DNA from: a virus
Strand: one strand, 5' to 3'
Virus record (IMG/VR): IMGVR_UViG_3300049433_000029
Coordinates: 1-49,321 of that record
DNA length: 49,321 nt
Shown here: positions 3,727-28,583 of the stretch, piece by piece
How the letters are laid out: each line of letters starts with the position of its first letter
Numbering within the stretch: the stretch's first letter is position 1
Notes under the pieces: generated by a model
The model's input: the letters and a program-made list of their open reading frames with translations, nothing else
What the model was told of the DNA's origin: nothing
Databases searched by the model: none
Position numbers and translations under genes: made by a program

Positions 3727-3745
3727 GTCTCCGTTTCGGGGAGAC
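3727..3745 (-). promoter_or_regulatory. Hairpin covering the endolysin ribosome binding site
   Basis: Minus-strand transcript: GTCTCC, 7-nt loop, GGAGAC. The right arm is the Shine-Dalgarno sequence itself, ending 4 nt before the GTG start. If it folds, translation of the endolysin would be damped. Confidence 0.35.
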
Positions 3746-3765
3746 AATGGCGGGCCTATCCCCAG

Positions 3766-3777
3766 CCGCAACGCACC
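3766..3777 (-). promoter_or_regulatory. Late motif copy 1 (GGTGCGTTGCGG)
   Basis: First of seven exact copies on the minus strand. The core ends 43 nt before the endolysin GTG. It shares CCCGCCAT at the same distance downstream with copy 2. It also lies upstream, in reverse, of the + strand cargo pair. Confidence 0.7.
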
Positions 3778-3818
3778 GTTGGATTGCGCGCCGTAGGGTT
3801 GTGGTGGTAGGAGGGAGA

Positions 3819-3938
3819 ATGGACGCCCCGGCGCATTGGACTGGTACGGATCGATTTGAGCGGCGGCTGGTCCTTTGGGCCATGGTCGCGAGTGTCGCCG
3901 GATCGCTTGTCCTGCTCGTTTTCCGCAAATTCTCATGA
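3819..3938 (+). CDS. Small single-span membrane protein (cargo pair, first gene)
   Basis: 39 residues. ATG at 3819 follows an almost perfect TAGGAGG ribosome site. Residues 1-15 are polar and 16-34 form one membrane helix (LVLWAMVASVAGSLVLLVF) ending in RKFS. Its stop overlaps the start of the epimerase-like gene (ATGA), so the two are translated together. The pair runs against the late operon around it. The role is unknown; it could anchor or regulate the enzyme at the inner membrane. Confidence 0.7.
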   Translation: MDAPAHWTGTDRFERRLVLWAMVASVAGSLVLLVFRKFS

Positions 3939-4771
3939 GCAGCTTTGTCATCGGCGCAACCGGTAAGATCGGCAGCTATATCGTCAAGCACCTGGTTGAG
4001 GCTGGCGAGGCGCCGTTTGCGCTTTCGCGTGTGCAGCGATCGACCGAGGGCGCCAGCTGGATTCAGGGCGATCTTAAGCGCCCCGAGATGATCAGCGCGC
4101 CTTCCGTCGATACCCTCTACTGCACCGCCAATTGCAAACTGTTTTCCCTTGCGCTGCCGCTCCTGTACCGACCCGGCCTGAAGCGCGTGATCGTGTTCAC
4201 CACCACCAGCATTGCGACCAAGCTGTCATCCGATATCGATGCCGAGCGCGACATGCTCGAGGGCTACGTCGCGGCCGAAGAAAGCATCAAAGCATTTTGC
4301 GAGGCGCGCGGCGTCGAATGGACAATCCTACGACCGACCCTCGTTTACCTGGAAGGCCGCGACCTCAACATCACTCGCATGTCGCGAACCATCAGGAAAC
4401 TCGGTTTCATGCCGCTGTCGGGCAAGGCTTCGGGTTTACGTCAGCCCGTCCATGCGGAAGATCTAGCGATGGGAGCGATTGCCGCGGCCTCAACTCCCGC
4501 CGCCGCAAACAAAACCTACGCGCTGCCCGGCGGCGAAACCCTCACCTATCGCGAAATGGTCGGGCGCGTGTTTGACGGAATGAACCGCCCGCGCCGTCTG
4601 ATATCTCTGCCTCCCGCTTTGTGGCGCTTTGCCTTCATGCTTGTGCATCGCTTCTATCGTGGCTTCAATGTTGCGATGGGTGACCGAATGTCCAAGGACA
4701 TGACGTTCGATGCATCGGATGCTGTGCGGGATTTCGGATGGAAGCCGCGAGAGTTTCGCCCGAAGTTTTAA
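3935..4771 (+). CDS. NAD(P)-dependent epimerase/reductase-like protein (extended SDR), phage cargo gene
   Basis: 278 residues. The start at 3935 is set by ATGA overlap with the small membrane gene. A Rossmann nucleotide-binding motif GATGKIG lies at residues 7-13. The protein has the layout of atypical/extended SDRs (nucleoside-diphosphate-sugar epimerases, NmrA-like proteins), with a C-terminal substrate region including ALPGGETLTYREMVGRVF. The canonical YxxxK pair is not obvious, so the reaction cannot be named. No phage structural role is known for such enzymes, so this is a host-type metabolic gene carried as cargo. Modification of surface sugars, and so phage exclusion, is a reasonable guess but only that. 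Confidence 0.8.
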   Translation: MSSFVIGATGKIGSYIVKHLVEAGEAPFALSRVQRSTEGASWIQGDLKRPEMISAPSVDTLYCTANCKLFSLALPLLYRPGLKRVIVFTTTSIATKLSSDIDAERDMLEGYVAAEESIKAFCEARGVEWTILRPTLVYLEGRDLNITRMSRTIRKLGFMPLSGKASGLRQPVHAEDLAMGAIAAASTPAAANKTYALPGGETLTYREMVGRVFDGMNRPRRLISLPPALWRFAFMLVHRFYRGFNVAMGDRMSKDMTFDASDAVRDFGWKPREFRPKF

Positions 4772-4778
4772 AGGGCAA

Positions 4779-5201
4779 TCACTTGCACTCTGGAATAGCG
4801 ATCTTCTGTAGCCTGTCCTCGACGAATTCGGCGCGATGTTTGAATTTCCGATAATCCTTGATCTGGCCCGCAGGTACGCCATCCTCGCCTTCCGCAGGCC
4901 GTTCCGCGTTGGTAGCGTCGTCGGGCAGGAAGGGCGCCAGAAACACCGTCTTGCCGAACTGCTTCAGGCAGTAGGCTTCAAGGCTTTTGATTTCATTCAG
5001 CCATGCGTCATCGACAAGGCGCACCATGGCTGGTTTCACATCTTTGGCCGGATGCTTCTTCGCTTCCACGATCTGTGCCGACAGGCTGCGGATTATCGAC
5101 ACGCGACCGCCAAGGCCTATTTCGACGGGCGCAACCGTCTGCGCCACCGCCCCGGTCTGGATCGCGAACATTATCAGCAGCGTCGCCAGCTTCTTAATCA
5201 T
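4779..5201 (-). CDS. Secreted hypothetical phage protein
   Basis: 140 residues, ATG at 5201 after GAGGAG. It has a clear Sec signal peptide (KK, then a hydrophobic stretch, cleavage near AVAQ at about 21). The rest is soluble, has two cysteines (CLKQF and the C-terminal PECK) and no known motif. It lies 10 bp after the tail fibre gene in the late operon, so it may be a periplasmic or virion-associated partner of the fibre. Function unknown. Confidence 0.7.
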   Translation of the reverse strand: MIKKLATLLIMFAIQTGAVAQTVAPVEIGLGGRVSIIRSLSAQIVEAKKHPAKDVKPAMVRLVDDAWLNEIKSLEAYCLKQFGKTVFLAPFLPDDATNAERPAEGEDGVPAGQIKDYRKFKHRAEFVEDRLQKIAIPECK

Positions 5202-5211
5202 TCGCGGCTCC

Positions 5212-8200
5212 TCATTGGTTCTGGTAAATACCCGAAAGTGTAAAATGATTATTCAGAGCAAGGGCTGTCTGCATTTGACAGCTGGCTGCGGTTGTTGATG
5301 CGGTGATCTTGCACCCCACCGGGATTGCCGAGACGGCGCTCTCATCACCGCCGCCGCCTGCACCAGTTTGCGGCGTGTTCGGCAAGGTCCAAGTAAAGGT
5401 GCCTCCGGTGCAGGAGCCGATCGCGGTGATGGTTAGGTCCATGGACCAGTGCGTAACCTTGCCCCAAGTTTTGAAAGCGGCAGAGGTAACCGTCCACGTG
5501 GCGGTGCCGCAAGTCGGGGAAGGCGTGAAAGACGGCCACGCGGTGTTGTCCATGTTGGCCGCCGGCAGGTTTCCGGTGACCGTCGAAGTGCTGAGCGCGA
5601 CCGTAAAGCTCGCGCCGGTCGCGCCGCCGGTGAGCGTGCCGACGGACGTGAGCGAGGACGCCGTCACGCCAGCTGCGAGCGTCGATCCCGTAAGCGCGCT
5701 CGCCGCGACGGCGCTTGCCGTGCCTGCCGTGAGGCTGGCTGCAGTGCCGGTCAAGCCGGTGCCGGCACCCGAGAAGCTGGGCGCCGTCAACACCCCGGTC
5801 GACGGATTGAACGTGTATTTGGTGCTGCTGACCTTCTGCGGCAGGTTGCCGGTCGCCGCCGTCACCCAGGTCGGATAGACCGTCGCGTTGGTGGTGGTGT
5901 CGTCCGTGATCGCGGTATTAGTCGCGTTGGTGGCCGTGGTCGCCGTGCTTGCAGCGATCGAGGTATTGCAGCCGAAGCCGGTATTCGTCGTCCAGATCAG
6001 CGCGCTCGACGACGAGCTGCACGACGACATCGAATAACTGGCCCAATTGGCGGTGCCGCTGGTGGCGTTGGCCATCACCGTATTTGCGGCGGTCTGGCCC
6101 AACATCGAAATCGGCAGCGTGTTTGCGCCGCTGGCCGTTCCCGAGATCGCTGGCCCGTTCAAGGTCGGGCCGGTTCCGAAGCTGGTCAGGGACGATGCCG
6201 TTACGCCGGCGGCCAACGTTGCGCCTGTCAGCGTTCCGGCTGCTGCAGCACCCGTGCTTGTGCCGCAGGTGATGCCGGTGCCGCTTACGTAATTGACATG
6301 GTTGCCGCCGCTGTCCGAACACGATGGCATCGCGAAGCTGGCCCAGCTTCCAGTCGAGCCCGTGAAGTTCGCCAGCATCGTATTTGCCGCAGTCTGCCCG
6401 AGCACCGCGATCGGGATGGTGTTGTTGCCGCTGGCCGTGCCGCTGATGACGGGGCTGGAAAGCGCGGGGTTGATGCCGAACGTCGTGAGCGATGAATTAA
6501 CGACGTTGGAGGCGAGTGTCGTTCCGGTCAGCGACCCAGCTGCAGCCCCACTGAGGACGCCGACCGTCAGCGGGCCACCAAGCGTGGACTGCTGCAGCAC
6601 GCAGCCCGCGCAGCCCGTCAAGGTCATGTCGAGATTGGTGCCAACAGAAAATCGAAACTGTCCGCCTCCGGACGGCGGCGCTTGAAAGGTAAAGATGCCC
6701 GGCACCATGTGAAGGCCGCTCACCGTCGCGAACCCGAGGACGGTCAACGGATCGGAGCCGCCTATTGTCCCGATATTGACCTTCTGCGAATTGATGGAGC
6801 TGCTGCTGTTGAGGGCCGCGCAGTCCGCCGTGACGCCGTTGGTGGTGCAATAGTTCCCATTGAAGCTGAGGTTTACCGACGCGGCGGTATTGAGCACATG
6901 TGGCGGGGTTGCCGCCGTCGTCGCGATGCGGTTCGAGACGATCTTGATGTTTTCCGCGTTGCGGACGCAGCTCGGATAGACCGTTCCGACCGATGAATTC
7001 TGCGAGATGGTGTTGCCGTCGATCAAACCGCCCAGCACCTGTGAGGTCGCGCCCGTGACGTCGATCAGGCAGCCTTGGGTATTGGCAACGTTGCCCATCT
7101 CGAATTCGACGTTGCCGGTGATCGACGGGAATACGCCGCCATCGATCACCACCATGCCGTTGACGTTGGCGATCAGGCCGCCTTCAAGGCGGACGCTGGT
7201 GGCGCCGCCGACCTGATCCCATCGATAGCCGGGATCGCCGCGCAGCTCGTTCTGCCCGACGGTGACGTCCTTGAACGTGATGCTGTCGCCGACGTTCTTC
7301 ATGTTCACCGACATGAAGACGCTGCCTTTGATCATGGCGTTATTCAGCCCGCCACCGCCATTGTTGCCGAGCGCGATCAGCGCCGTGCCAGGCGCGACTG
7401 TCTGCGACGGCGTGATGGTATAGGTCCCGGCGCCGCCGGTGCCGCTGCCCAGCGCCGTCACCCGCGCGATAATCACGCCGGATGTGTTCACCACATTGCC
7501 GCCGACAAAGATCGTACCGGAACTCACCGACGCAACTGTCATCGTGGTGCTGGATATCCCCGCAATGATCGACGCATTCGGCGACGAGAACGTCTTGAAC
7601 GACTGGCCGGTTTTCATATTGCCGATGAAAACGTGGTCGATCACCGTCTTGTATTCGAAATAGTCGGGCTGTCCGGTTGCGGTGATGTGAATGCCGTGAC
7701 GGCCGACGCCAGCGCCATAGAAGCCGGTGCTGGGATAGAACGCAAAATTCTTCAGGACGGTGCCGAACACGTTGTTGGCGCCGGCCCGGCGGATGAAGTC
7801 GCAATCGTCCGGAATCGACGGGCCGAGCAGAAACGCCGTGCCGCCGGGATTGCCCGCGGACCATCCGGTGCCCTCGATGGTGATCGACCTATCCCGGATC
7901 GTGGTCGGGGAGAAATCGAACACCGCGTTGTTGACGCAGGAATTGACCAGGTACTGCCCGGCCGGAAACAGCAGCTTGCTGCCGTTGGGGATTAGCTGGA
8001 TCGCCGCGCGAATGCCGGGGCCATTATCGATTAAGCCGGTTGGATCAATGCCCGCGTAGTCAGTGGCGAAATAGGTCTGCGCAAGCCGGTTCTGCACCGT
8101 TTGCGCGATACCGCCCGGCTGCAGGAAGGTGACGTTGCTGGCCGATGTGACTCCGGAGACAGGCGAATACGTCGTGATGTTGCCGAGCGCGTCGAAGCCG

Positions 8201-8763: not shown

Positions 8764-8792
8764 GCCCAGCAGGATGGCGGGCTGGCGGGGTG

Positions 8793-8804
8793 CCGCAACG
8801 CACC
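8793..8804 (-). promoter_or_regulatory. Late motif copy 2
   Basis: Exact GGTGCGTTGCGG on the minus strand, ending 29 nt before the tail fibre ATG. If transcription starts at or next to that ATG, the motif's TTGCGG falls at -35 to -30. Confidence 0.7.
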
Positions 8805-8891
8805 GTGGGGATCGGGGACACTCCGCGCGTCCCTTGCGAGGCCGCTATGGCCGGAAAATGCGGGCCACCACGCTATGTCCCCGAAACGGCA

Positions 8892-9155
8892 CTATCCTAT
8901 CGGCCTCAGTTTGATGATCTCGGTAGTCCTGCCCGCAGCATTCTCGATGATGGCGCTTTCGAACCGCGGCGGCGCTCCCTCGTTATGTGGCGCTGCTTCT
9001 TTAATGTCGACGCGGGAGTCGTCAGCGCCATTTTTTTGATGCAGGGTAATCTCGGCGCTGCCGTCGTCGGCGCGCAGGATTGTGAAACTTTCGGCCTGCT
9101 TAATGACCTGTCGTGAGCCGCCCGCGCTCGTCTGGTAAAACTTGATCGTGAACAT
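8892..9155 (-). CDS. Hypothetical late protein
   Basis: 87 residues with an ATG at 9155 after AGGAGA. It is predicted all-beta and soluble (alternating hydrophobic pattern, MFTIKFYQ, SFTILRADDGSAEITLHQ). There is no known domain. It lies between the tail fibre and the HNH gene and is preceded by late motif copy 3, so it is probably transcribed late; a small virion or chaperone role is possible. Confidence 0.65.
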   Translation of the reverse strand: MFTIKFYQTSAGGSRQVIKQAESFTILRADDGSAEITLHQKNGADDSRVDIKEAAPHNEGAPPRFESAIIENAAGRTTEIIKLRPIG

Positions 9156-9221
9156 CTGCTTCTCCTGCTACTGCTGCTGCCGGACTGACCGGATGCCACA
9201 GCATCGCAAAGCAAGCACCGC

Positions 9222-9233
9222 CCGCAACGCACC
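9222..9233 (-). promoter_or_regulatory. Late motif copy 3
   Basis: Exact GGTGCGTTGCGG on the minus strand, 66 nt before the ATG at 9155, in the gap after the HNH gene. Confidence 0.7.
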
Positions 9234-9261
9234 GCCGGTTAGTGGCGCTCCGGCCTGGCCC

Positions 9262-17241: not shown

Positions 17242-17254
17242 TATGCGGCTCCGT

Positions 17255-19564
17255 TCATAGGCTGACTTCCATGCCAAATTCGACGATGGTTTCCGGGCCC
17301 GGCGTATCCTTGATGAAGGCCACGCGCGGATCGAACGAATGACCAGACGGCCGCCACGATTCCACGGTCTCGCGCTGTTTCGGCGGCTTCGTTGCGTCAT
17401 CGTCCTGGTTCCACGCCGGCACGCGCTTGATGCTCATGGGCGTACCGAGCGGAGGTGATGTCGCAGTCTCCTTGCGACTGAACAGCTTCTGCAGCGTGAA
17501 GCCGGTCGAGTTCACGACATGGACCGCAAAATTCGAGATGCGCCGCTTCATCATGCGTTGATGCATGTCGACACCGGATTGCGCAGCCGGCGCGAACGGT
17601 TCGACTGTCATGGTCCACGGCTGCCCCGCAACCAGCGACGCAACGTTCAAATCCTCGCCGCCGTTGAACTGTGGAATGATGAAGCCGTTGACGTCGACCT
17701 GATACGTGCCCATCATGCGGGTGCCCTGATCCATCAGCGATACCGGATCGGCAGCCCACCACATCGGCCCCTTGCCGACAGGAGGAGCGAAGCTGAGCGG
17801 CGGGTTGTTGATGGGAAACCCAGCATCGAGATACAGCGTGTCGTCGAGGACTTCGCAAATCGCGTTGTTGAAATAGCTGGCCGTGAACAACACGTCAGCG
17901 GCGGAAGCCGAAATCCATGTCACCGCGCCAACGCCCGACCACGGCCCCCAGCCGACCGCCTGATCCGACTGCACGCCTTGCAGCGTGTATTTGCCGACCG
18001 CCATGCTGCCATCGGCGTTGAGCACATAGGCGTATCGCTCATTGAACGTGCCGTCGGCGGTCGGGACTGCGATGGCGATGATGTTCGAAAACAGATGGCT
18101 ATGAAAGTCGCTGAGATTCTTGGTGTTGAACGGGCGGTAGTAGGCGCCGGACGCAATGACCGCCATCACGCTGTTCTGCCCGGCATTCACGTACAAAATG
18201 ATTTCCTGCGACACACGCGGTTGCACCTGCGCACAGCCGTCGCTCGACAACGTCTGGAATCCGACGCTGCCCGGCTTGAGCGGATTGGAGGCGTCGATCT
18301 TGATGTAATAAAGCTTGCGATCGCAGAACACGAATTCCGAGGATTCCGGACCCGGGACCACGTAATAGACCCGCACTTTGTCCGGTGCGATCTCGAATAT
18401 GGCGTCGGCGGGATTCGGGCCGACATAAAGATCGGTCGGCGAGTTGATCGCGGACCACGCAATGCCGCCCGGCACTGATGGGAAATCGCAGAAGCCGACC
18501 CGGAACTGATCCGAGAACACCGACGCGGGATAGCCGCGATAGGCGTTCATGACCTCCTCGTCCCACAGCGTCACGCCGATGGTCGGGTTGTCGATGGCTC
18601 CGGCGGCGCCGACCACGATGCTGCCGGCCGGCCCGACAACCGTTTCGCCAGTGACGAACGATACCGTCTCGACTTGAGCAGAACCGCCCGGCGGAAGCGC
18701 GCCGCTGATGCTGACGCTGGTCGAACTTGTCGTGATCAGTTGGACGTCGATTGCGATGGCGCTGATCGCGGTGACGATTCCCTTGGAGCCGGATGTGCCG
18801 CCGATCACAACATCGCCAATAGAAAAACTTGCGCGCGGATCGGTCGCTACCGCTAAATCCTGGTGGCCCGGCAGGGACTCCTCGATCGTGACGACGGCAA
18901 GCTGACTGCTGGTCACGGCGGTGATCAGCATTTGCCGGCCGACGAACCGCATGCGGGTGCCGACGTGTCCGGCAACGAACAGGGCGGCCGACGCGAAAAG
19001 GTTGACGCCGGCACCGGTGCGCTGGGTCGGCAACAGCGTGATGCCCTGCGGGCTGATGCGATAGAACGGCGTCCGCTTCTGGTTCGCATTCATGAGTTCG
19101 GAAAAATCGGCGATGGTCCAACTCGCCGGCGTTACGCCATCCCAGGTCAGCACCTGCGGGATCATGCCGGGAAAGGTGACGTAGACTTTGAGGCCGAGTT
19201 GCGCGTACACGACATCCTTGCGCGTCGCATTCGTCCATGGCACGGCGGCGCCATTGCCCTGGACCGGGATGCTGATCAGGCCTTGACCGTCCGCGCTATA
19301 GATGCCGAGGAGGTGGTCGCCGAACACGAATTTGAACGTGTTGCCGGGCGACATCGTGACTTCTTCGGTGCGGGAGCCGTTCTGGAACGGCATGATGGCG
19401 CGGCGGCCCGGGCGGTTTTGTACCGCGCCGGAATTGAGGATGCGGGCATTCGACATCTGCCGCAGGCCCGTTTTGCGCGCCGGATGGTCGTCGGAGCGCT
19501 TAAGCGAAACGTCAATTTCGCCGGATGAGAAGTCGCGCTGCGATCCCTGAATTTGCCGAGGCAT
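17255..19564 (-). CDS. Tail tubular protein B-like (nozzle)
   Basis: 769 residues, predicted beta-propeller-rich. The N-terminal part has the family pattern seen in T7 gp12 relatives: FSSGEIDVSLKRSDD, then a run ending SGAVQNRPGRRAI, followed by repeated strands. Gene order (next to a tail tubular A-like gene and before the ejection genes) supports it. It would form the tail nozzle through which DNA and ejection proteins leave. Recognition is by pattern and context, not alignment. Confidence 0.75.
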   Translation of the reverse strand: MPRQIQGSQRDFSSGEIDVSLKRSDDHPARKTGLRQMSNARILNSGAVQNRPGRRAIMPFQNGSRTEEVTMSPGNTFKFVFGDHLLGIYSADGQGLISIPVQGNGAAVPWTNATRKDVVYAQLGLKVYVTFPGMIPQVLTWDGVTPASWTIADFSELMNANQKRTPFYRISPQGITLLPTQRTGAGVNLFASAALFVAGHVGTRMRFVGRQMLITAVTSSQLAVVTIEESLPGHQDLAVATDPRASFSIGDVVIGGTSGSKGIVTAISAIAIDVQLITTSSTSVSISGALPPGGSAQVETVSFVTGETVVGPAGSIVVGAAGAIDNPTIGVTLWDEEVMNAYRGYPASVFSDQFRVGFCDFPSVPGGIAWSAINSPTDLYVGPNPADAIFEIAPDKVRVYYVVPGPESSEFVFCDRKLYYIKIDASNPLKPGSVGFQTLSSDGCAQVQPRVSQEIILYVNAGQNSVMAVIASGAYYRPFNTKNLSDFHSHLFSNIIAIAVPTADGTFNERYAYVLNADGSMAVGKYTLQGVQSDQAVGWGPWSGVGAVTWISASAADVLFTASYFNNAICEVLDDTLYLDAGFPINNPPLSFAPPVGKGPMWWAADPVSLMDQGTRMMGTYQVDVNGFIIPQFNGGEDLNVASLVAGQPWTMTVEPFAPAAQSGVDMHQRMMKRRISNFAVHVVNSTGFTLQKLFSRKETATSPPLGTPMSIKRVPAWNQDDDATKPPKQRETVESWRPSGHSFDPRVAFIKDTPGPETIVEFGMEVSL

Positions 19565-19572
19565 CGGTCACC

Positions 19573-20256
19573 TCAATTCGGGGTGCCAGTGCCGGACCAG
19601 CCGGTCGGTATACGGGTCCACGGCCGGCGAACACGACGCGAAGCGGTCATGCGAGAGTTGAACATCGCCCGTTTCGGCTTCTGCATGTCGTGGCGGGACC
19701 GCGCCTCGCGCAGCATCTGCATCGCTGCGGACCAAAGCTTGTCGGCCTCCGCGGTGTCGGAGTGCAGGCCGCGATAAATGCCGGACATCACGAGCGCCTG
19801 CAGCGCCAATACCACGGTCGGGGTCGCAAAAGTCGGGTCGGAGTTGGTGGAGAAGATGCCCTTGATCGTCACCGGCAGCGGCGTGGCGGGTGGTGACGGA
19901 GGCGGTGGGCCGCCCTGCGAATTCACCACAAGCTGATCGGCCAGCAAGTCCCACACGCAGGGCCGGTCGTTGATCCGCACCAGGATGAGATGCACGAGAT
20001 CGGCCGGCAGCGGATACGCGGTGTCGAATTGGGTGTCGGCCGGTGCGGTCGGGGATGGCTGCAGGGTCCGAACATCGGTCAGCCACGACCACGAATGGTT
20101 TTCGCAACAATAGGCCAGTCCGCGTTCATAGGCGGGTGAGGCGGCCTTCCATTCCTCGGAGCCGTCATCGGCAACGGCAACAAGATCATCGCCGGTTTGA
20201 GACAGCGACGAGTTAATCAGTTCGAGCTTGCCGAGGGGCCATTCGAATGCTGCCAT
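19573..20256 (-). CDS. Tail tubular protein A-like (head-tail adaptor)
   Basis: 227 residues. The N-terminal 60 residues fit T7 gp11-type adaptors: LELINSSLSQTGDD, then an acidic stretch, ERGLAYCCENHSWSW. It bridges the portal and nozzle. The C-terminal 45 residues are very basic, possibly a separate DNA- or capsid-contacting tail. Late motif copy 4 ends 28 nt before the ATG, which lacks a ribosome site, and an intrinsic terminator lies just beyond the motif, so transcription seems to restart here. Confidence 0.75.
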   Translation of the reverse strand: MAAFEWPLGKLELINSSLSQTGDDLVAVADDGSEEWKAASPAYERGLAYCCENHSWSWLTDVRTLQPSPTAPADTQFDTAYPLPADLVHLILVRINDRPCVWDLLADQLVVNSQGGPPPPSPPATPLPVTIKGIFSTNSDPTFATPTVVLALQALVMSGIYRGLHSDTAEADKLWSAAMQMLREARSRHDMQKPKRAMFNSRMTASRRVRRPWTRIPTGWSGTGTPN

Positions 20257-20284
20257 GCTGCACGCTCTGCCGGAGAGGCGTCAT

Positions 20285-20296
20285 CCGCAACGCACC
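20285..20296 (-). promoter_or_regulatory. Late motif copy 4
   Basis: Exact GGTGCGTTGCGG, beginning 3 nt after the T-run of a terminator and ending 28 nt before an ATG with no ribosome site. This is the copy that most strongly suggests a promoter. Confidence 0.75.
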
Positions 20297-20299
20297 ACG

Positions 20300-20322
20300 A
20301 AAAAGGCGGCCCGTAGGCCGCC
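20300..20322 (-). terminator. Intrinsic terminator inside the late region
   Basis: Minus-strand transcript: GGCGGCC, loop TACG, GGCCGCC, then five T. A perfect 7-bp G/C stem with a stable tetraloop-size turn directly before a U-run. It ends the head-gene transcript after the 20353 gene. Confidence 0.85.
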
Positions 20323-20352
20323 CTTACGTCGCGTGGATCATCCTTGGGAGGA

Positions 20353-20952
20353 TTACTGAGCGGCGCCCGCGGGGATCGGGTCAGCGGCTACCGCGTTGGG
20401 GACTGCCGCCGTTTGAGGCGCGGGAGTGAGGCCGATGCGCCTGTCAGCTTCCGCCTGTTCTTCCGGCGTCAGCTTCAGGAATTCCTCGCGCTTTTCTTTC
20501 TTGGTCGGGCGGCGCGCAGCGGGATCGGGCTGTGGCGGCGGGGAGGCAACCAACGCCTCGTCGGCGGCGACCTGATCGGCGACGGCTTGCTCTTCGGCCT
20601 GCTTTTTGCGGAACGTTGCAAGACGTTCGTTCGCGTCAGCAACCGCCTTGGCATGCTCGTCGATCGCGGCCTGTTCCTCGGGGGTGGCCTGCAGCGGTTC
20701 GGCGCCCAGCCAAACGGGCGCGACGGGAGGCGGCAGGCCACGGGACTTGGCGATGTCGACATCGCGGTTGTATCGGTCGGACAGTTGCTTGCGCGCCGCG
20801 GCAGCGTCATCCGCGTTCCACGGCTGCATGCTCCATTCCAGCGGATGACGGCCGACCGCGCTTTGCGCATCGACTGCGTAGGGGAAGTCCTGCGGACCAT
20901 CGACGACGTGATAGGCGACCGCCGACATATTGGAATCGATCTGGACAGGCAT
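20353..20952 (-). CDS. Hypothetical head-region protein
   Basis: 199 residues, ATG at 20952 after GAGGA. N-terminal part (1-50) is soluble and mixed. The centre (50-150) is a charged helix rich in Ala, Glu and Lys, and the C-terminus is Pro/Ala-rich low-complexity. It is the last gene of the head cluster, directly before the terminator. An accessory virion protein is likely; no family is recognised. Confidence 0.65.
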   Translation of the reverse strand: MPVQIDSNMSAVAYHVVDGPQDFPYAVDAQSAVGRHPLEWSMQPWNADDAAAARKQLSDRYNRDVDIAKSRGLPPPVAPVWLGAEPLQATPEEQAAIDEHAKAVADANERLATFRKKQAEEQAVADQVAADEALVASPPPQPDPAARRPTKKEKREEFLKLTPEEQAEADRRIGLTPAPQTAAVPNAVAADPIPAGAAQ

Positions 20953-20967
20953 GGGTCAATCCTCGGG

Positions 20968-21495
20968 TTAAACGTCGATGCCGGCGCGGCTGATCCACGA
21001 CGTGACCGTCATCGACGGTGTGGTGCCACCAGCGATCAACCGGCATTTCAGATAGCGGTAGTAGATGCGGCAGGACAGGTTCGTGAACGGCTTCTGCTGC
21101 AGCATGCCGGCGAGACCGGTCGGTGGGACCGTCGGCGTGGCGCCGAGCAGGGTTGCGATCACGCGGTTGGCGGCGAGCGCTGCGAAATCGTAGAAAGCGA
21201 GCAGCTCGACATTTCCGTTACCGAACGCTGCGTCGTTCGATCCCAGCAAGGCGAGTTGATAGGTCTCGTCGGTAGTGGTGAAATCGAGCGCCGTGATGTC
21301 GATGCTCCAGATGCCGTCGGTGCGCCCGACGGCGGAAACCGGCTTGGCGCCGCCGAGATCGATGATGCCGGAATTGAGGTTGTTGAGGTATCCGGTCGCG
21401 GTCAGCGTCTGGGTGTCCGTGAACGCGAGCGATGCGTCGAACGGGCACGGAAATTCGCTGATCTGCGAGGGAATGGCGAGAGGGGTCAGGGCCAT
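20968..21495 (-). CDS. Bbp16-like capsid cement protein
   Basis: 175 residues, strong AAGGAGA site. The N-terminal FDASLAFTDTQTLTATGY followed by IIDLGG is the pattern of the Bordetella phage BPP-1 cement protein Bbp16 (F-S-D-A-Q-x-x-T-A, then x-D-L-G). That protein sits on the capsid and clamps hexamers. The neighbour upstream is a Bbp17-like capsid gene, the same order as in BPP-1. Recognised by motif and context. Confidence 0.75.
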   Translation of the reverse strand: MALTPLAIPSQISEFPCPFDASLAFTDTQTLTATGYLNNLNSGIIDLGGAKPVSAVGRTDGIWSIDITALDFTTTDETYQLALLGSNDAAFGNGNVELLAFYDFAALAANRVIATLLGATPTVPPTGLAGMLQQKPFTNLSCRIYYRYLKCRLIAGGTTPSMTVTSWISRAGIDV

Positions 21496-21507
21496 TGGGA
21501 ATTCTCC

Positions 21508-22482
21508 TTAGGCCACGATGGTGGCGTTGGTGACGGAATCGAGCCGGGCGAGCGCCTTGGGGTGTTCGCGGGCGAAGCCGAAATCCCACTTCACATGAGT
21601 GGAATCCTGCGGCTGACCGATGACCGGTCCCTCGGGAACAACCGTGATCGGGGTCTGCTCGATGCAGTAAAAGCCGCCGGGCCGGAACGAGACGCAATAG
21701 ACCGACGAGGTGACGGCAGAGCCGCCGCCCGACGCCACTTCGGTGAAGGGCAACAGGTCCGGTGAATCGTCCGGCTCGTAACCGAACAGAATCGGCAGGC
21801 CCTTGAACTTGATGATGCGGCGGCCGAAATCATCCTCCGCGTAAGCCACGGTCTGGTTGACCAGCGTATTGTTGCGCGCCGCGGTGTCCCATTGCGGCAT
21901 CAGGGCCCTGGGCATGATCCAGTGCGTCGGCTTGTTGACGCGCCAGTACAGCGCATCCATGTTGGCGAGCGACAGTGCTGCGCCGCCGGAGGCCGCCGAA
22001 TTGTGGATGTTGTTGCCGGTCGACGCCGTGGCGTCGAGGCAGCGAACCTGAATGCCGTTCGGAGTGCGGACGTTCGAGGAATGGTCCGACTTGATCAGCC
22101 CTTGCGAGAAGAATTGCCCGAGCGCGGTCGATACGAGTTGCTCTTGCTTGTACTTTCCTTCCGGCCCGAGGCGGTCGATCACGGCGCGGTCGACGAAGAT
22201 GTACTGGTCGAGGAAGAAGGTATCCTCCTCGCGCAGGTTGAAGGTGCCCTGCCCCTGACCGCCGGCCTCGTTGAGACCGCGCTGGGCCACCGTCGGCAGC
22301 GTCGCGATGTCCATATAGGCGCGCTTGCCGCGTTCGGCCGGGAGCACCGGGCACGCCATCATGACGTCCGACTCCCGGACCATATTCTCGACGAAGGTTC
22401 GAGTCGGATCGTTCTCCGGGATCGACTTGTAATACTGGATGAAGTCGGTCGGGGCGGTGATGGTGGTGGTGAGCGAAACCAT
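21508..22482 (-). CDS. Major capsid protein, BPP-1 Bbp17-like
   Basis: 324 residues, close to the length of BPP-1 Bbp17, ATG at 22482 after GGAGG. It contains ENMVRESDVMMACPVLPAER near the start and capsid-like blocks HWIMPRALMP and GLPILFGYEPDD. In BPP-1 this family has a circularly permuted HK97 fold. It follows the scaffold gene and precedes the cement gene, as expected for head assembly. Confidence 0.85.
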   Translation of the reverse strand: MVSLTTTITAPTDFIQYYKSIPENDPTRTFVENMVRESDVMMACPVLPAERGKRAYMDIATLPTVAQRGLNEAGGQGQGTFNLREEDTFFLDQYIFVDRAVIDRLGPEGKYKQEQLVSTALGQFFSQGLIKSDHSSNVRTPNGIQVRCLDATASTGNNIHNSAASGGAALSLANMDALYWRVNKPTHWIMPRALMPQWDTAARNNTLVNQTVAYAEDDFGRRIIKFKGLPILFGYEPDDSPDLLPFTEVASGGGSAVTSSVYCVSFRPGGFYCIEQTPITVVPEGPVIGQPQDSTHVKWDFGFAREHPKALARLDSVTNATIVA

Positions 22483-22497
22483 TTAGAAGTCCTCCGT

Positions 22498-23331
22498 CTA
22501 GGCCGATTTCCGGGCGCGCAACTGATCCTGCGCTTGGCGCTGTTGTGCGAAACTCATGTCCTTGAAACCCGGAATTTCCTTGTCGTCCGGCGCAACGCGG
22601 TGCTGCTGCGAGAATGCAGCCGAGCCCTGCGATGTCGTTTTGGTGATCAGGTATTCGATTGCTTCGACATGGCGAGCGGCAACCATCATCTCTGCAAGAG
22701 CAGCCGCGTGGCGCTTGTCGGACGTCCCGTCAATTCCGGTAAGCCATTGCGTCGCGTTGTCGACGCGGGCGGTGGCGGTGGCGCCCAGCTTGCCGATTTC
22801 AGCCTTTCGCGCATCCGCTATTCGCGCGTCGGCCCCAATTTTGTCGGCGGCATAGAGGGCGACCCACTGCGAGAATTCGTCCTGTGTACGACCTTGCGCG
22901 TGCGCCAGATCGCGGGCCTGTGCCAGCAGCGGGTCACTCTCGTCGAACGTGAACGGGGCAACACCATCCGGCATTTTAAAGTCGGCAGGTAGGCTGGCCT
23001 TGTAATCTTTTGGCGCATCCGGGAGCGTCGCCTTGCGAACATCTTCCGCGGCGACGCGAACCTTGAGACCGTCGCGCTCTTTCAGATCTTTGGCGAGCGC
23101 GACCGGATCGACCTTGAGCGCTTTCGCTTCCGGGTCCCAATAGGAATCGGGGATGCCTTCGGGGCGCTCAGTCGTCGCGGTCGTAGCCGGGGACGCGGGT
23201 GTCTGCGGTGATGCGGCGGCCACCGGGGTTGCGGGCGGGGCCGACGCGGCGGGGCTCGGGGCCGGGGACGACAATGGGCTGCTCACCGTCGCCGGTGTTG
23301 ATGCCGCTGGTGTTGCTACTTCGCCCGCCAC
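22498..23331 (-). CDS. Scaffolding-like head protein
   Basis: 277 residues from a GTG at 23331. A 55-residue Ala/Pro/Ser/Thr low-complexity N-terminus is followed by a helical, charged body (IPDSYWDPEAKALKVDPVAL, a pattern common in phage scaffold proteins) and a basic C-terminus. It should guide capsid assembly and leave before packaging. Its first 164 bp overlap the upstream gene in another frame. Late motif copy 5 lies 67 nt before the start, inside that gene. Confidence 0.75.
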   Translation of the reverse strand: MAGEVATPAASTPATVSSPLSSPAPSPAASAPPATPVAAASPQTPASPATTATTERPEGIPDSYWDPEAKALKVDPVALAKDLKERDGLKVRVAAEDVRKATLPDAPKDYKASLPADFKMPDGVAPFTFDESDPLLAQARDLAHAQGRTQDEFSQWVALYAADKIGADARIADARKAEIGKLGATATARVDNATQWLTGIDGTSDKRHAAALAEMMVAARHVEAIEYLITKTTSQGSAAFSQQHRVAPDDKEIPGFKDMSFAQQRQAQDQLRARKSA

Positions 23332-23542
23332 TTTCCAGAATTCCCTTTGCCATGAGGCCGATCAACTTCGCAGCCAACATCCTTTCTCCCTGATCGGACC
23401 GCAACGCACCGTCGGTGTCCGCAGCCAAAACCGTCATCAGCCGGCGTTGCAGAAACACGTAAACCGTTGCGCCGTCGGGCGTGCGAGCAAAACGGTCGAG
23501 CGCTTCGTGACATTCAGCGGTGGTCGGATGAACTTCGGTCAC
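23168..23542 (-). CDS. Hypothetical protein between portal and scaffold
   Basis: 124 residues. A GTG at 23542 overlaps the portal stop (GTGA), so it is likely coupled to portal translation. Residues 1-70 look like a real helical protein (ECHEALDRFARTPDGATVYVFLQ); the last 55, which overlap the scaffold gene, are low-complexity and may be set by the other frame. Late motif copy 5 is inside its coding sequence (residues about 45-48). Confidence 0.6.
   Translation of the reverse strand: MTEVHPTTAECHEALDRFARTPDGATVYVFLQRRLMTVLAADTDGALRSDQGERMLAAKLIGLMAKGILESGGRSSNTSGINTGDGEQPIVVPGPEPRRVGPARNPGGRRITADTRVPGYDRDD
23399..23410 (-). promoter_or_regulatory. Late motif copy 5
   Basis: Exact GGTGCGTTGCGG within the 23168-23542 gene, 67 nt before the scaffold GTG. 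Its exact conservation inside coding sequence argues for a DNA- or RNA-level role. Confidence 0.65.
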
Positions 23543-25149
23543 GCGGCAGGCCCCGGTGTTGCATCGCCGGGATCGCCGACATGGCGGGCGCCGGCGAGCT
23601 TGGCCATGTTGTCGACGGCTTGCTTAACCTGGTCGAGCGGCCGTAGCTTGATCAGCGTCACTTCGGTTTCGTCGAGCCACGCTTCCATGGTCTTGCGGCC
23701 ATCGACGTTGATCTTGAACTCCTCCGGGAACATGCCGCCCAGCGTGCCGGCGGTGCGGGATGCTTCCGCCACGGCCTGCAGCTTGGCTGCGGCCTGCGCC
23801 GGATTGCGGGGCAGCATCGCCACGGCACGGCCGTCGATGGTGAGGGGCTGGATCGTCTGCGACTTCTCCAGCAAATATTTGTAGCGCAGGAAAATCTGAC
23901 TGAGGTCGCGCCAGAACGAAAGCCCGGGCGTACCGATGCGGCGCTGCATGCGCGCTCGCTCGTCGAGCCATTGCGTTGCGGTCGGCGGCGTATCGCCGGT
24001 TTGCTCCGGTAGGTCGACATAGAACAGCTTCTGCAGCTTCTTCAGCTTGGCCTCGTAGGCATATGCCGCGCGGTCAGCCGGTGGGACATCGTAGATTTTC
24101 TTGATCGCGCCTTCCGAGCCCGGCCGGATCGGATAGCCGAATCCGGATTCGAAGCCCTGCTCGACCGCGGCAAAGCTGTCGTCCGGATAGGTCACCGGCG
24201 GGCGCAGCGCCAACTCGAAGTTTTCCTGCAGCATCAGTTCGGCTTCGTCGATCTGGCGCAGCGACGGCAGACCCTGGATCAGCGGCCCGAGCGCGAATGG
24301 TGAATCCGGCGTCGGGTTGAAACGTCCAATCCACAGCGGGCAGCAGCCTTCGCCCTTGATTTCGACGTGGTGCACGAGGTTGTTGCCGGTTTTCCCGACC
24401 ATGACGACGTGCTGCCAGACCTCGTCGCTCTTATCCGCCCATTTGCGCCAATAGCCCCAAACGACCTGGGTGCGCTCCTTGGCCTTCTCGCCGATTTCCT
24501 TTTTCAGGTCGCCGCTCATCTTGGCCCAGATTTCCTCGCCGAGAAGCTCGCGGACATGGACGTTGCGGGTTGATCGCGTGACGAAGCGATCATCGATATC
24601 GCCATAGGGGCCGAGATTGACTTCCAGTTCGCGCAGTGGGATTGCCGAAACAACGATTGGCCTCGCGGCATGCGAGCGGTCGATCCACAACCCAACCGTT
24701 CCGATCGCCAGATCAGGATAGAAGCCCTTTGCCACCTCGGGGTAGAGGTTCGATGCCCGCATGGCGTTGAAGATCGCCAGATCGTTTGCCTTGGCGGTAT
24801 TCTTGACCTTGTCCCAAACGCCGTCGGGCAGGTCCATGCCGCGGCCGCTCACGCACCACGGCTTGTCGGGCGACATGAATGCCTGAACCACTTCGGTGGT
24901 GAAGTCGCCGCAAAGAATGAATGCCTCGTCGGTGTTGAGTTCGGCTGCGTCTTGAATGCGCGAGTTAATAAGCGCAGTCGATTCCATCTGGCGGTTGCGG
25001 TGCGGAGAGGCGAAGAAATAGCACTCGCGGAAGTCCATTTCCCATGGGCCCTTGATCGCCTTGGCGGCGGCGCGACGGTCGCGGGCTTCGGTTTCGAGCG
25101 CGGCGTCAGCGCTGGGCGGTGGCGCTTTCGGGGGAGGCTTTGCCATCAC
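23539..25149 (-). CDS. Portal (head-tail connector) protein, T7 gp8-like
   Basis: 536 residues, GTG at 25149 (an ATG one codon in is equally possible). The sequence has the head-tail connector family look: Glu/Arg-rich start, TDEAFILCGDFTTEVVQAFM, IRPGSEGAIKKIYDVPPADR, PPTATQWLDERARMQRRIG. Twelve copies should form the ring at the packaging vertex. It overlaps the 65-residue gene upstream by four bases (GTGA) and feeds into the 23542 gene. Confidence 0.85.
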   Translation of the reverse strand: MMAKPPPKAPPPSADAALETEARDRRAAAKAIKGPWEMDFRECYFFASPHRNRQMESTALINSRIQDAAELNTDEAFILCGDFTTEVVQAFMSPDKPWCVSGRGMDLPDGVWDKVKNTAKANDLAIFNAMRASNLYPEVAKGFYPDLAIGTVGLWIDRSHAARPIVVSAIPLRELEVNLGPYGDIDDRFVTRSTRNVHVRELLGEEIWAKMSGDLKKEIGEKAKERTQVVWGYWRKWADKSDEVWQHVVMVGKTGNNLVHHVEIKGEGCCPLWIGRFNPTPDSPFALGPLIQGLPSLRQIDEAELMLQENFELALRPPVTYPDDSFAAVEQGFESGFGYPIRPGSEGAIKKIYDVPPADRAAYAYEAKLKKLQKLFYVDLPEQTGDTPPTATQWLDERARMQRRIGTPGLSFWRDLSQIFLRYKYLLEKSQTIQPLTIDGRAVAMLPRNPAQAAAKLQAVAEASRTAGTLGGMFPEEFKINVDGRKTMEAWLDETEVTLIKLRPLDQVKQAVDNMAKLAGARHVGDPGDATPGPAA

Positions 25150-25343
25150 ATCCCCGCGGCCGGCGGCGCCATCGACATGCCGGTGCTGGACAGCGCCAAC
25201 CGGGTGCCGTAGCGGGTCATCATGTCGGCGGTGTCAGCCCGCGCCTGCGATTGAAGGCCTTCGATCAAGGTTTTCTGCGCCTGCGCCTGTTCGGCCGCAA
25301 GGTTCGGATCGACAGCTATCTGGGGCGCACTGGATTGGCCCAT
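25146..25343 (-). CDS. Small hypothetical protein before the portal
   Basis: 65 residues from the ATG at 25343, with a helix rich in Ala and Gln (NLAAEQAQAQKTLIEGLQSQ) and a Met/Ala/Pro end. Its stop is coupled to the portal start. Its first 110 bp overlap the end of the 25234-25752 frame. Late motif copy 6 lies 52 nt before this start. A small head-completion protein is possible. Confidence 0.6.
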   Translation of the reverse strand: MGQSSAPQIAVDPNLAAEQAQAQKTLIEGLQSQARADTADMMTRYGTRLALSSTGMSMAPPAAGM

Positions 25344-25752
25344 CGTCGCGCACAACTCCACCTTGAGCGACGAGATGGCGGAAAAGCGCGTCGGGCCGCA
25401 ACGCACCGCAGCGCACCCCGATCAGGTGGCTCACCGCGGTGGTGCAGAACAGGCCGAGCCGCATCCAGGGCAGGTTGTCGTCGCGCACCTCGATGGTGAC
25501 GGTGGCGTTGCCGGTGACGATCGCGGCGATGATGGATTGCGCGGACGGGCCATCGACCAGCACCTTCAATCGCGTGCGGCGGAAACCGACGTCATACACC
25601 CACCACTGCGACAGTTCGGGAATCCACGCCAGCGCCGAGACGTGCTTGAAATGCCCGAGCGCGATCATGGAGAAGAAGCGGTTTTCAGCCTGCCGGTGGA
25701 ACACCACGGTCCAGCGCGCAGCCTCGATGCCGAATGGCGGGACTTCACGCAT
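25234..25752 (-). CDS. Hypothetical protein between terminase and portal
   Basis: 172 residues. The ATG at 25752 overlaps the previous stop (ATGCGTGA). Residues 1-110 look natural (ARWTVVFHRQ, HVSALAWIPELSQWWVYDVGF, LFCTTAVSHLIGVRCGALRPD); the last 60 are Arg/Gly/Cys-rich and lie over the next gene, so the functional end may be earlier. Late motif copy 6 encodes part of RCGALRP. Function unknown; the position suits a packaging or head accessory protein. Confidence 0.6.
   Translation of the reverse strand: MREVPPFGIEAARWTVVFHRQAENRFFSMIALGHFKHVSALAWIPELSQWWVYDVGFRRTRLKVLVDGPSAQSIIAAIVTGNATVTIEVRDDNLPWMRLGLFCTTAVSHLIGVRCGALRPDALFRHLVAQGGVVRDDGPIQCAPDSCRSEPCGRTGAGAENLDRRPSIAGAG
25396..25407 (-). 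promoter_or_regulatory. Late motif copy 6
   Basis: Exact GGTGCGTTGCGG inside the 25234-25752 gene, 52 nt before the ATG at 25343 that leads into the portal gene. The bases just upstream (GGTGCGCTGC) look like a partial second copy. Confidence 0.65.
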
Positions 25753-25927
25753 CTGACTTGGAAAACAATTCCAGTAGATCGTTGGCGCGCTCCTGCGCAT
25801 CGACAACTTCCGAAAATGGGCGCAAGCATTCGACTGGCACCATCAACCTGAAAGATGAGCACGGAAGGCTGGGCCTCTCGCCGGCAGCCCTCGGCTTGAT
25901 GGGAAACGGGATAACGTCGGCAGTCAT
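25745..25927 (-). CDS. Small hypothetical protein (MTA-x-VIPFP start)
   Basis: 60 residues from the ATG at 25927, after GGAGGG. The start MTADVIPFPIKP is a leader shared by many small rhizobial and phage proteins, and the end is an acidic helix. It is coupled downstream by ATGCGTGA. A similar start (MTADIIDLPRR) occurs in the 27468-27659 gene. Function unknown. Confidence 0.6.
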   Translation of the reverse strand: MTADVIPFPIKPRAAGERPSLPCSSFRLMVPVECLRPFSEVVDAQERANDLLELFSKSDA

Positions 25928-25962
25928 TGCAAAGCCCTCCAAATCACTCAAATTCTAACACA

Positions 25963-27471
25963 TCACGCGGTTACCCGGCGCATCGACTTGCGGCGGTTCC
26001 AGACCTGGGTGGGCTTCATCTCACCGATCGGCCGCAACCCGATCATCTTGCGGCCCTCGCCAAGGCCGAGGATGCCATACTGCTCGGCGTCGGCCGGATT
26101 CGAATAGCGGTCTTTCTTGGGCCGCAGCACGCCGTCATCCTCCTTGACGAGGTGGTAGCGGCCCGCTTTTGCGACCTTGAGCGTGCGGCAAAGCGGTGAC
26201 AGCACGTATCGCGGCGAGCCGTCGTGCATCTCGTTGTGCACCGAGGTGACCGCGGACACCCGGGTCTCGATCATGTTCTGCTTGAGTCCCGGCGGCGGGC
26301 GCACCTTCATGCCGTTCGCTTCGAAGATATCATAGGCGGTGCGCTCGTCGGCCTGACCCTTGTCCTGCCCTTTTGGATCGCCCCAAAAGTTGACGTCGGG
26401 CATGTTCCAGAGCGGATACTTGTCGGCGAGGAAGCGGCGGACCTTCGGCGCAAAAGTGACCGCGCCCTCGTTCCTGCCGAGCAGCTCGTATTGCACATAG
26501 ACCCGGTTGTTCGCGGCCTGCATGAAAATCGCAGCGGGCTGGCGCCCGAAATCCAGACCGACCGTCAGCGTAACGCTGGGAATCGGCCGCAGCGGCTCGC
26601 GAGCGACGTGGACCTCGACCACAAACTCCGGATAAACCGGCGAGCCATCGACCACCAGCGCCACCACGTTGCGTAAGCGCGAGTCGATCCACGGTTTCTT
26701 TTTCGAGAACAGCTGCTTTTCGTAATAGCCCTTTGGCAGGTTTTCGATGTTCTCGGCGGCAGGATTGACGTCGTAGCGCTGGATGACCTTGTGCTCGTCG
26801 CGCACCTCGACGACCGCCGGCGGCTGCTTGTGAAATCCCCAATGGCTGGGCCACACATAGGCCGCCCGCTCGTCATCAGTCAGACCCGGCGGCTCGTCCA
26901 CCTGCCCGGTCATGATCGCCAGCCAGTGATCCTCATCCGGCGCGTTGGCGTCGGCAATGATGCCGTGCCATTCCGAGCCGCCGTGGTCGGCGCCGGGGTA
27001 GCGCAGCCGCGACGTGCCCTCGTCGAACAATTCCTTCTCGATAAAGGGGATTTCGTTGAAGGCGCCGCCGGTGTATTCGGTCGAGCGCAGCTTTCGAACA
27101 TCCTCCGGCTTGTCGAGCGCGAGGAAGTCGATATCAAGCGACACCCCGCCGAAGCGTATCTTGTGCGACGGCGGCTGACCCCAATTGAACCGGCCATAGA
27201 TGTGTTCGGGAAACATCTCAAGCCAAGTCCGGATCGTGGTCGTTTTCAGGTCCGGATAGGTATTGCGCGCCATGAACCAGCGTGACATTCGCAGGCCGGT
27301 GATCCTCGATATCCGCTGCTGTTGCGCGTGCCGCATGATCCGCGCGCACAGCGCCCGCGTTTTCCCGGAACCGAGCGGCCCCTGGATGATATCGACCTCG
27401 CGGTCGGACAGCACGAAATCGCAGACCTTCGTGCCTGCGACCAGCTTGAATTGGGCGCGACCGTCGGTCAT
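25963..27471 (-). CDS. Terminase large subunit
   Basis: 502 residues; the ATG at 27471 overlaps the upstream stop (ATGA). Walker A motif GPLGSGKT at 31-38; a second ATPase block VSLDIDFLALDKPEDVRKL; nuclease-domain aspartate in TVGLDFGRQPAAIF; late block NPADAEQYGILGLGEGR. It drives DNA into the capsid and cuts concatemers. It belongs to the group found with BPP-1- and T7-like heads. Together with the small subunit at 27855-28358 it forms the packaging motor. Confidence 0.92.
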   Translation of the reverse strand: MTDGRAQFKLVAGTKVCDFVLSDREVDIIQGPLGSGKTRALCARIMRHAQQQRISRITGLRMSRWFMARNTYPDLKTTTIRTWLEMFPEHIYGRFNWGQPPSHKIRFGGVSLDIDFLALDKPEDVRKLRSTEYTGGAFNEIPFIEKELFDEGTSRLRYPGADHGGSEWHGIIADANAPDEDHWLAIMTGQVDEPPGLTDDERAAYVWPSHWGFHKQPPAVVEVRDEHKVIQRYDVNPAAENIENLPKGYYEKQLFSKKKPWIDSRLRNVVALVVDGSPVYPEFVVEVHVAREPLRPIPSVTLTVGLDFGRQPAAIFMQAANNRVYVQYELLGRNEGAVTFAPKVRRFLADKYPLWNMPDVNFWGDPKGQDKGQADERTAYDIFEANGMKVRPPPGLKQNMIETRVSAVTSVHNEMHDGSPRYVLSPLCRTLKVAKAGRYHLVKEDDGVLRPKKDRYSNPADAEQYGILGLGEGRKMIGLRPIGEMKPTQVWNRRKSMRRVTA

Positions 27472-27659
27472 TCCACCACCGGAACGGCCTTGAAGCCGCG
27501 AGCCCATAATTCGGCGAGGATGTAATCGGTCCAGCGCTCCGCGTCATCCCGCCCGGTGTTCTTGAAAGTGAGCGCGAGTTCAATCAGCGCCTCACGCGCA
27601 CCGTTGCCAGGATTGCGCGCCACATCACGACGGGGGAGATCGATAATATCGGCGGTCAC
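27468..27659 (-). CDS. Small hypothetical protein before the large terminase
   Basis: 63 residues, GTG at 27659, starting MTADIIDLPRRDV and ending in a helix (ILAELWARGFKAVPVVE). Its stop overlaps the large terminase start. A small regulator or packaging accessory is possible; no family recognised. Confidence 0.6.
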   Translation of the reverse strand: MTADIIDLPRRDVARNPGNGAREALIELALTFKNTGRDDAERWTDYILAELWARGFKAVPVVE

Positions 27660-27803
27660 GAGAAAACCCGCGCGATATTTAGGGCTGTAATATTTCCCGG
27701 AGGTCCCGATGGTTTGGGGGAGAAGCGTGGGGGTGGATTACCAGCGCCTCGATCGGCGGCCGAATTTACCCCCCGGCCTCGTTGCGAGCGGGTCCTGCGA
27801 TTG

Positions 27804-27823
27804 CGAGGCCACCCCCGGCCTCG
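27804..27823. other. Hairpin in the gap between the terminase genes
   Basis: CGAGGCC, 6-nt loop, GGCCTCG, in the 195-bp non-coding stretch 27660-27854 between the small and large terminase regions. There is no T-run after it on either strand, so it is not an intrinsic terminator. A third GGCCTCG occurs at 27776-27782. A packaging-site or RNA-processing role is possible but unsupported. Confidence 0.4.
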
Positions 27824-27854
27824 GTCGCCACTTCGCGTATTGCTGCGCTGCACG

Positions 27855-28358
27855 TTACCCACGGTCCCCACCATCGTCAGGACCGCGGTTCAACGTTATC
27901 AACGGCTTACCATCATTTGGGCTTAACGGGGCATTAACACCGCCCTGCACAATGACGATCTGCAGCCCTGGAAGGGCCTGAGAACCGCGGCTGACCTGCG
28001 CTTCATCATCGATCTGCTCAAGCCTCGCGACGGCTTGGACGCGCGCCATTTGGTTCGTGGTCTGATCGCGCACTTCGACCAATGTGTGAATGTTTCGAGC
28101 ACGTTCGCTGGTACGCAACACGTCCAACTGCGCCATGTAGTACGCTTTGACGGGAGGCTTACGCAGCGCCTTGTAAAGCCCGTGCTCGCTGATGCCTGCC
28201 TTTTGAGCCGCATCTGCGCGCTGGGAGCCGGACCACACCATGAGGTCGATTGCGACACGGACCTTGCCGGTTACACGCTCGATTTTGTCCGCTTTCGGAG
28301 CGATGGCCGGCGGCTGCGACCTGCTATCCGTCTGCACTGGTACGATTGCGGATGGCAT
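27855..28358 (-). CDS. Terminase small subunit-like protein
   Basis: 167 residues. Residues about 30-75 contain a helix-turn-helix (AIDLMVWSGSQRADAAQKAGISEHGLYKALRKPPVKAYY), typical of small terminases that bind the packaging site. The rest is helical with a Gly/Pro-rich end. It is the first gene of the late operon. Late motif copy 7 ends 107 nt before the start, and an AAGGG site precedes the ATG. Confidence 0.8.
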   Translation of the reverse strand: MPSAIVPVQTDSRSQPPAIAPKADKIERVTGKVRVAIDLMVWSGSQRADAAQKAGISEHGLYKALRKPPVKAYYMAQLDVLRTSERARNIHTLVEVRDQTTNQMARVQAVARLEQIDDEAQVSRGSQALPGLQIVIVQGGVNAPLSPNDGKPLITLNRGPDDGGDRG

Positions 28359-28465
28359 GTCGTCGGCCCTTGGCCTTCCTCATGGTCCTCGGTCGCAAGC
28401 TCCCTGCGGAAGGATTACGGGCGCGATGCGGGACGCGCGGGCTTTGTGGTCCCGTTTGGGGCGAG

Positions 28466-28477
28466 CCGCAACGCACC
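28466..28477 (-). promoter_or_regulatory. Late motif copy 7
   Basis: Exact GGTGCGTTGCGG in the divergent gap 28359-28583, pointing at the small terminase and so at the head of the whole late operon. Confidence 0.75.
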
Positions 28478-28519
28478 GTTGAGTTATGCAGCAGTGGCGG
28501 GCTTTTCATGCCTGTTGCG

Positions 28520-28540: not shown

Positions 28541-28565
28541 GGCGTTGCGGCGCGAATATGAACGT

Positions 28566-28580: not shown

Positions 28581-28583
28581 CCC

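Follow-up and report, generated by a model that had tools for sequence, protein, structure and literature searches.

Seven exact copies of a directional 12-bp element, GGTGCGTTGCGG, very probably mark late promoters of a temperate phage, as judged from sequence comparison. The whole stretch of viral DNA that was analysed (49,321 nucleotides; IMG/VR record IMGVR_UViG_3300049433_000029), here called the window, belongs to a temperate podovirus-type phage with a T7-like tail and internal virion proteins, terminase, a CI-like repressor and replication genes; neither tRNAs nor Rfam families were found in it. To our knowledge, little has been described of how temperate phages of Alphaproteobacteria control their late genes. 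The explanation considered likely as a whole is that the elements would be phage-read -35 boxes of late promoters for host RNA polymerase. Each element would form the recognition box of the -35 region, at about -40 to -29, followed by a weak sigma-70-type -10 (xAnnnT) 16–17 bp after TTGCGG, and transcription would start ~7 bases past the last T of the -10. At ~40% of sites this start would fall on the next gene's ATG, so that the mRNA would be leaderless, and at the other sites a leader with a Shine–Dalgarno sequence would be made. A phage DNA-binding protein would read the box and recruit RNA polymerase, switching on many late units together. The box and its direction, the placement of the A/T pair and of the ATG, and the clade-wise words come from sequence statistics, whereas the transcription start, leaderless translation and dependence on an activator are deduced from them. 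Beyond the preliminary description of the same DNA, the analysis points to a positioned -10-like element, to many predicted leaderless mRNAs and to a clade-wise replacement of the word at the same places.

The seven copies that had been listed were all found again at their positions and on the minus (late) strand, at the reported 28–107 nt from the late genes, and no copy occurs on the plus strand of the window (Table 1). GGTGCGTTGCGG is the commonest repeated 12-mer of the window, with an order-2 Markov expectation of 0.024 on both strands, and in an unbiased search it ranks first among strand-asymmetric 8- to 10-mers. When two mismatches were allowed, the motif was not enriched in the window (19 against 12.4 expected), indicating that the signal resides in the strict word. 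The nearest start downstream of the copy at 25396 is that of the 65-residue gene (ATG 25343). Several other readings of the word were discarded. The spacing does not fit a sigma-54 promoter (GG-N10-GC), and pairing of GTGCG with a downstream CGCAC as a hairpin suits some sites only. De novo discovery of 12-mers with two mismatches gave only GC-rich coding repeats among the words returned, and a literature search for the word itself yielded merely incidental sequences.

Table 1. Late-strand elements of the window, their associated signals and the candidate reader gene.
Feature	Position	Strand	Remarks
Element 1	28466..28477	-	Exact copy; before small terminase (ATG 28358); no clear -10
Element 2	25396..25407	-	Inside 190-aa ORF; before 65-aa gene (25146-25343) and portal; no clear -10
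Near-copy GGTGCGCTGCGG, one mismatch	25406..25417	-	Overlaps element 2
Element 3	23399..23410	-	Exact copy; before scaffold gene (GTG 23331)
-10-like GATGTT of element 3	23376..23381	-	17-bp spacer after TTGCGG
Element 4	20285..20296	-	Before tail tubular A; ATG 20256 is element base index 40
-10-like GAGCGT of element 4	20262..20267	-	17-bp spacer; predicted RNA start at or beside ATG
Terminator-like hairpin and T tract	20300..20323	-	Ends 3 bases upstream of element 4; seen by eye, absent from pattern-scan list
Element 5	9222..9233	-	Exact copy; before gene 8892-9155
-10-like GATGCT of element 5	9200..9205	-	16-bp spacer
Element 6	8793..8804	-	Before tail fibre; ATG 8763 is index 41, predicted leaderless
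-10-like CATCCT of element 6	8771..8776	-	16-bp spacer
Element 7	3766..3777	-	Before endolysin gene (GTG 3722, GGAG upstream)
-10-like CATTGT of element 7	3744..3749	-	16-bp spacer
176-aa basic XRE-fold protein gene, candidate reader	29454..29984	-	Family in 13/13 records; ClgR/C.BclI profile matches

Relatives gathered by their capsid protein comprised 70 viral and 5 genome loci. Within these loci, selected by the MCP, the core of the element, GTGCGTTGC, has >100 copies on the late strand against 2 on the other. The sites lie at shared positions, namely the small terminase, a conserved ORF ahead of the portal (inside which the site lies), the scaffold, tail tubular A, the tail fibre and others. 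Among 12 fuller records, nine contain the core (53 late-strand copies against 2 opposite), and the remaining three have a different word or none that was found. The view that a phage-specific late promoter or activator site unites scattered late units is supported by these comparative data. Site statistics were drawn from 86 non-redundant GTGCGTTGC copies (<70% identity over 60 bases), a filter that reduces but does not remove kinship among sites of one gene class, which share descent. Conservation at the portal and scaffold sites is in part coding; a 'GA' at +15/+16 of the first logo was dropped as a signal, being largely an in-frame Asp codon at these two sites. A scan of viral contigs with ACGGTGCGTTGCGG was also set aside, the matches listed being mostly single-copy and probably on unrelated contigs. 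No capsid relative above 35% identity was present among 50,697 phage records, the best match in these being Microcystis phage Mwe-JY08 at 34%, so the group seems to be without a sequenced isolate among those records.

Two side observations concern the terminase–portal region. The 190-aa ORF (25234-25806, minus strand) between the large terminase and the portal, in which element 2 is translated as Gly-Ala-Leu-Arg, has a homologue in 13/13 phages, and no Pfam or PHROG match was obtained for it. In addition, a CGCGCGTCCCGCATCGCGCCCG-like block at 28418-28439 (minus strand), downstream of the terminase-side element, is present in the window, G005 and G019, with a related form in others, and may be a packaging or leader signal.

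Downstream of the element, a second signal stands at a fixed distance. Counting from the first G of the element as index 0, 57 of the 86 sites have an A at index 29 or 30 with a T four bases further on, the highest value in 2000 shuffles being 14; in counts per offset, such pairs pile up at index 29 (23 sites) and index 30 (36 sites) against ~2–3 at most others. The spacer after TTGCGG is 17 bp at 36 sites, 16 bp at 21 and 18 bp at 5. These positions are those of A-11/T-7 in a sigma-70-type -10, and the spacing is the 16–18 bp of an RpoD promoter. The pair is found in 21/21 tail-tubular-A and 8/8 scaffold sites and is missing at 24/86, including 7/12 portal-side and several terminase-side sites. 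In the window it accompanies five copies (3766, 8793, 9222, 20285 and 23399) and is absent from the other two. A search with the tail-tubular-A protein recovered the element in 20 of 22 loci and the pair in all 20 of those, of which 12 were new contigs and the remainder overlap loci already counted. The -10 hexamers of the five window sites are poor matches to TATAAT (CATNNT/GANNNT-like), and a plain sigma-70 scan of 19500-29000 found nothing. With its strict GGTGCGTTGCGG and deviant -10, the arrangement departs from a consensus RpoD promoter, in which the -35 is near TTGACA and the -10 near TATAAT. The earlier statement that the element is not sigma-70 is hence true of the box itself, which is no consensus -35, but does not extend to the spacing and the A/T pair, both of sigma-70 type.

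Host genomes were compared with these patterns. Outside the prophages of two Bradyrhizobium genomes (8.5–9.7 Mb), the 10-mer has 24–26 copies, about equal to the 18–20 of a reversed-pattern control, and their prophages carry 5–6 copies in ~45 kb, all on one strand. A motif search of related Bradyrhizobium prophages had been proposed as a check, and in these the elements are concentrated on one strand, with the host background near control level. The composite promoter pattern has 2 and 6–7 copies outside the prophages of the two genomes, against 7 and 4 for controls. These counts give no sign of a host regulon. Promoters of the RpoD type in Bradyrhizobium japonicum have the form TTG-N(16-18)-TATA, and many mRNAs of this species are leaderless, with 192 mapped starts exactly at start codons (PMC4842269). 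The phage sites resemble them in the spacing and in starts predicted at ATG (PMC4842269), whereas the strictness and length of their box and the poor fit of their -10 set them apart from the host consensus, and such promoters are absent as a set from the two host chromosomes. Host biology is compatible with the phage promoter reading.

Alternatively, a phage or host alternative sigma factor could read GGTGCGTTGC as its own -35, with no separate activator. An asymmetric -35 box, a fixed spacer and a weak -10 would suit such a factor, and weak Sigma70_r4 matches exist in some records. Nevertheless, no sigma-like gene is common to the phages and none was seen in the window, the two host genomes examined hold no such promoter set, and the A-11/T-7 pair is that of an ordinary sigma-70 -10. 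An alternative sigma factor is consequently regarded as unlikely.

The position of start codons agrees with that of the A..T pair. At 36 of the 86 sites an ATG lies 39–43 bases from the first base of the element, 17 of them at exactly 41, which amounts to 7.2 per offset against 1.4 elsewhere; GTG, TTG and CTG show no enrichment at this index in the same sites. The T of the -10 stands 6–9 bases before this ATG, so that the RNA would begin at the ATG. No Shine–Dalgarno sequence precedes 20 of these 36 ATGs, and a match of at least 4 bases precedes 3. Genes farther downstream tend to have one, although picking the best among several candidate starts biases this comparison. In each of the 20 tail-tubular-A contigs with an element, an ATG occurs at 39–43 or at 56. 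Leaderless mRNA at sites of the tail-tubular-A and fibre type is considered quite probable, and in the window the late mRNAs of tail tubular A and the tail fibre are predicted to be leaderless.

Tracts of T lie upstream of the element in 15 of the 20 tail-tubular-A contigs and at 9 of the 86 sites, against 1–2 in controls. A T tract followed by the element would be expected of a promoter placed after a terminator. The same arrangement offers a possible place for antitermination, and the element, being directional and preceding genes, might work at the RNA level, in transcripts begun at promoters farther upstream, as a signal for antitermination or a leader signal. Such a signal would however leave the leaderless ATGs unexplained; the -10 pair and the ATG stand at fixed downstream distances, as a promoter predicts, the element comes after the terminator and not before it, and no Rfam match was obtained. 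A role in RNA thus appears very unlikely.

In diverged clades the core is replaced at the same genes by another word, namely TGTGCTTTGC (G016, G018, L064-L068), GGTGCGGTGA (L049-L051, L058, L069), GGGCAGTGCG (L059, L073, L075) or GGGGCGTTGC (L028). In the TGTGCTTTGC clade, 8 of 10 sites again have the A..T pair at index 30, and the -10 hexamers are clearer, e.g., GATTAT and CATTCT. As in T4 middle promoters, a box specific to the phage keeps a constant distance from the -10, also in the TGTGCTTTGC clade. Further clades have GTGCG-type variants with TAnnnT ahead of the tail-tubular-A ATG. The rarer words have 4–7 non-redundant sites each, too few for their -10 statistics to carry weight by themselves. 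Since the word has changed genome-wide with the architecture unchanged, the reader would have changed along with it and is probably carried by the phage. That a phage-encoded protein reads the box is accordingly rated as probable.

Which protein this might be was considered from gene content. Among the non-structural ORFs tested, only two families occur in 13/13 records, the CI-like repressor and the 176-aa protein encoded at 29454-29984; the generic XRE profile can drift, and the 13/13 may include looser relatives for the CI-like gene and, less so, for the 176-aa protein. The latter matches profiles of XRE regulators (ClgR at E 1e-5, and also C.BclI). Its structural model (mean pLDDT 89.6) has an N-terminal domain resembling HipB, ClgR and C proteins, folds that also lead its Foldseek list at E 0.02 and above, so that fold and profile similarity both place it in the XRE type. 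It matched no relevant Pfam family, no PHROG with an E-value of 0.01 or lower and nothing in the phage collection, and homology to the described Ltr family was not found in Pfam or PHROG. With the XRE protein alone as query, four contigs were recovered, each of which contains elements; in total, 14 copies lie on one strand against 0 on the other. XRE proteins of phages with the same word are only ~25–45% identical to that of the window. Proteins of this type are usually dimeric on near-palindromes, and the asymmetry of the box is a point against an XRE reader. From position, universality and fold, the protein is the best candidate, and on balance we lean towards it as the reader.

Two further observations were made on XRE genes. 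In the two phages with the TGTGCTTTGC word (L218 15159-15692, L226 8471-9016), an excisionase-like helix-turn-helix at the N terminus precedes the XRE domain and the basic tail is lacking, a different architecture that counts against the XRE protein as reader. An element-like copy without the -10 pair lies upstream of the XRE gene at late-strand position 5430 of G004 (L197-L199), which may reflect either chance or autoregulation.

A single-subunit phage RNA polymerase of the T7 type could also be imagined to read the element as its promoter, given that the structural module is T7-like and that promoters of phage polymerases are directional repeats whose sequence differs from clade to clade. 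Matches to RNA_pol families nevertheless numbered 0 in 13 records, with the control of the same search silent; these records share no universal large non-structural gene, and what lies downstream is the -10 pair of a sigma-70-type promoter, which together make this reading highly improbable. Sites for packaging, replication or recombination can also take the form of scattered directional words, the gene positions then being incidental, but a role in DNA only is scarcely credible in view of the precise placement relative to start codons and the -10 pair, and of sites that keep the same genes while the word changes.

In its broadest form, the preferred promoter reading is that a family of temperate podoviruses spreads its late regulon over promoters with one box each, many of them leaderless. 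An asymmetric box would stand in for the -35, a new XRE-type activator would read it and redirect host RNA polymerase, and regulon-wide exchange of the word in separate clades would have produced orthogonal promoter–activator pairs. This broad form is offered tentatively, with a chance slightly below even. If the promoter reading is right, a late-gene map would become computable for many uncultured prophages, leaderless expression of virion genes would become testable, and related phages with a change of control word throughout the regulon would bear on the joint change of regulator and sites.

Among known systems, the middle promoters of T4 (MotA box, AsiA) also have a short upstream box in place of the host -35, which a phage protein reads on host RNA polymerase (PMC6024815). 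The MotA box, however, has its centre at -30 and belongs to middle genes, whereas the present box lies at about -40 to -29 and serves late genes of a temperate podovirus; no relative of MotA or AsiA was identified in the phage. The Ltr/RinA late regulators in temperate phages of Gram-positive bacteria are similar in gene order (PMC13123087), but Ltr has a single main late promoter as its target, where several repeats of 18 bp lie between -107 and -42, whereas here at least seven separate promoters carry one box each. The system is filed as neither T4 middle-type nor Ltr-type, since homology to those proteins was not found and the activator dependence is one that we infer. The C protein of phage Mu provides a further parallel, being one phage activator for several late promoters whose -10 and -35 deviate from consensus (PMC4461284). 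Mu C binds as a dimer upstream of or over the -35, whereas the box described here is single, asymmetric and located at the -35 itself.
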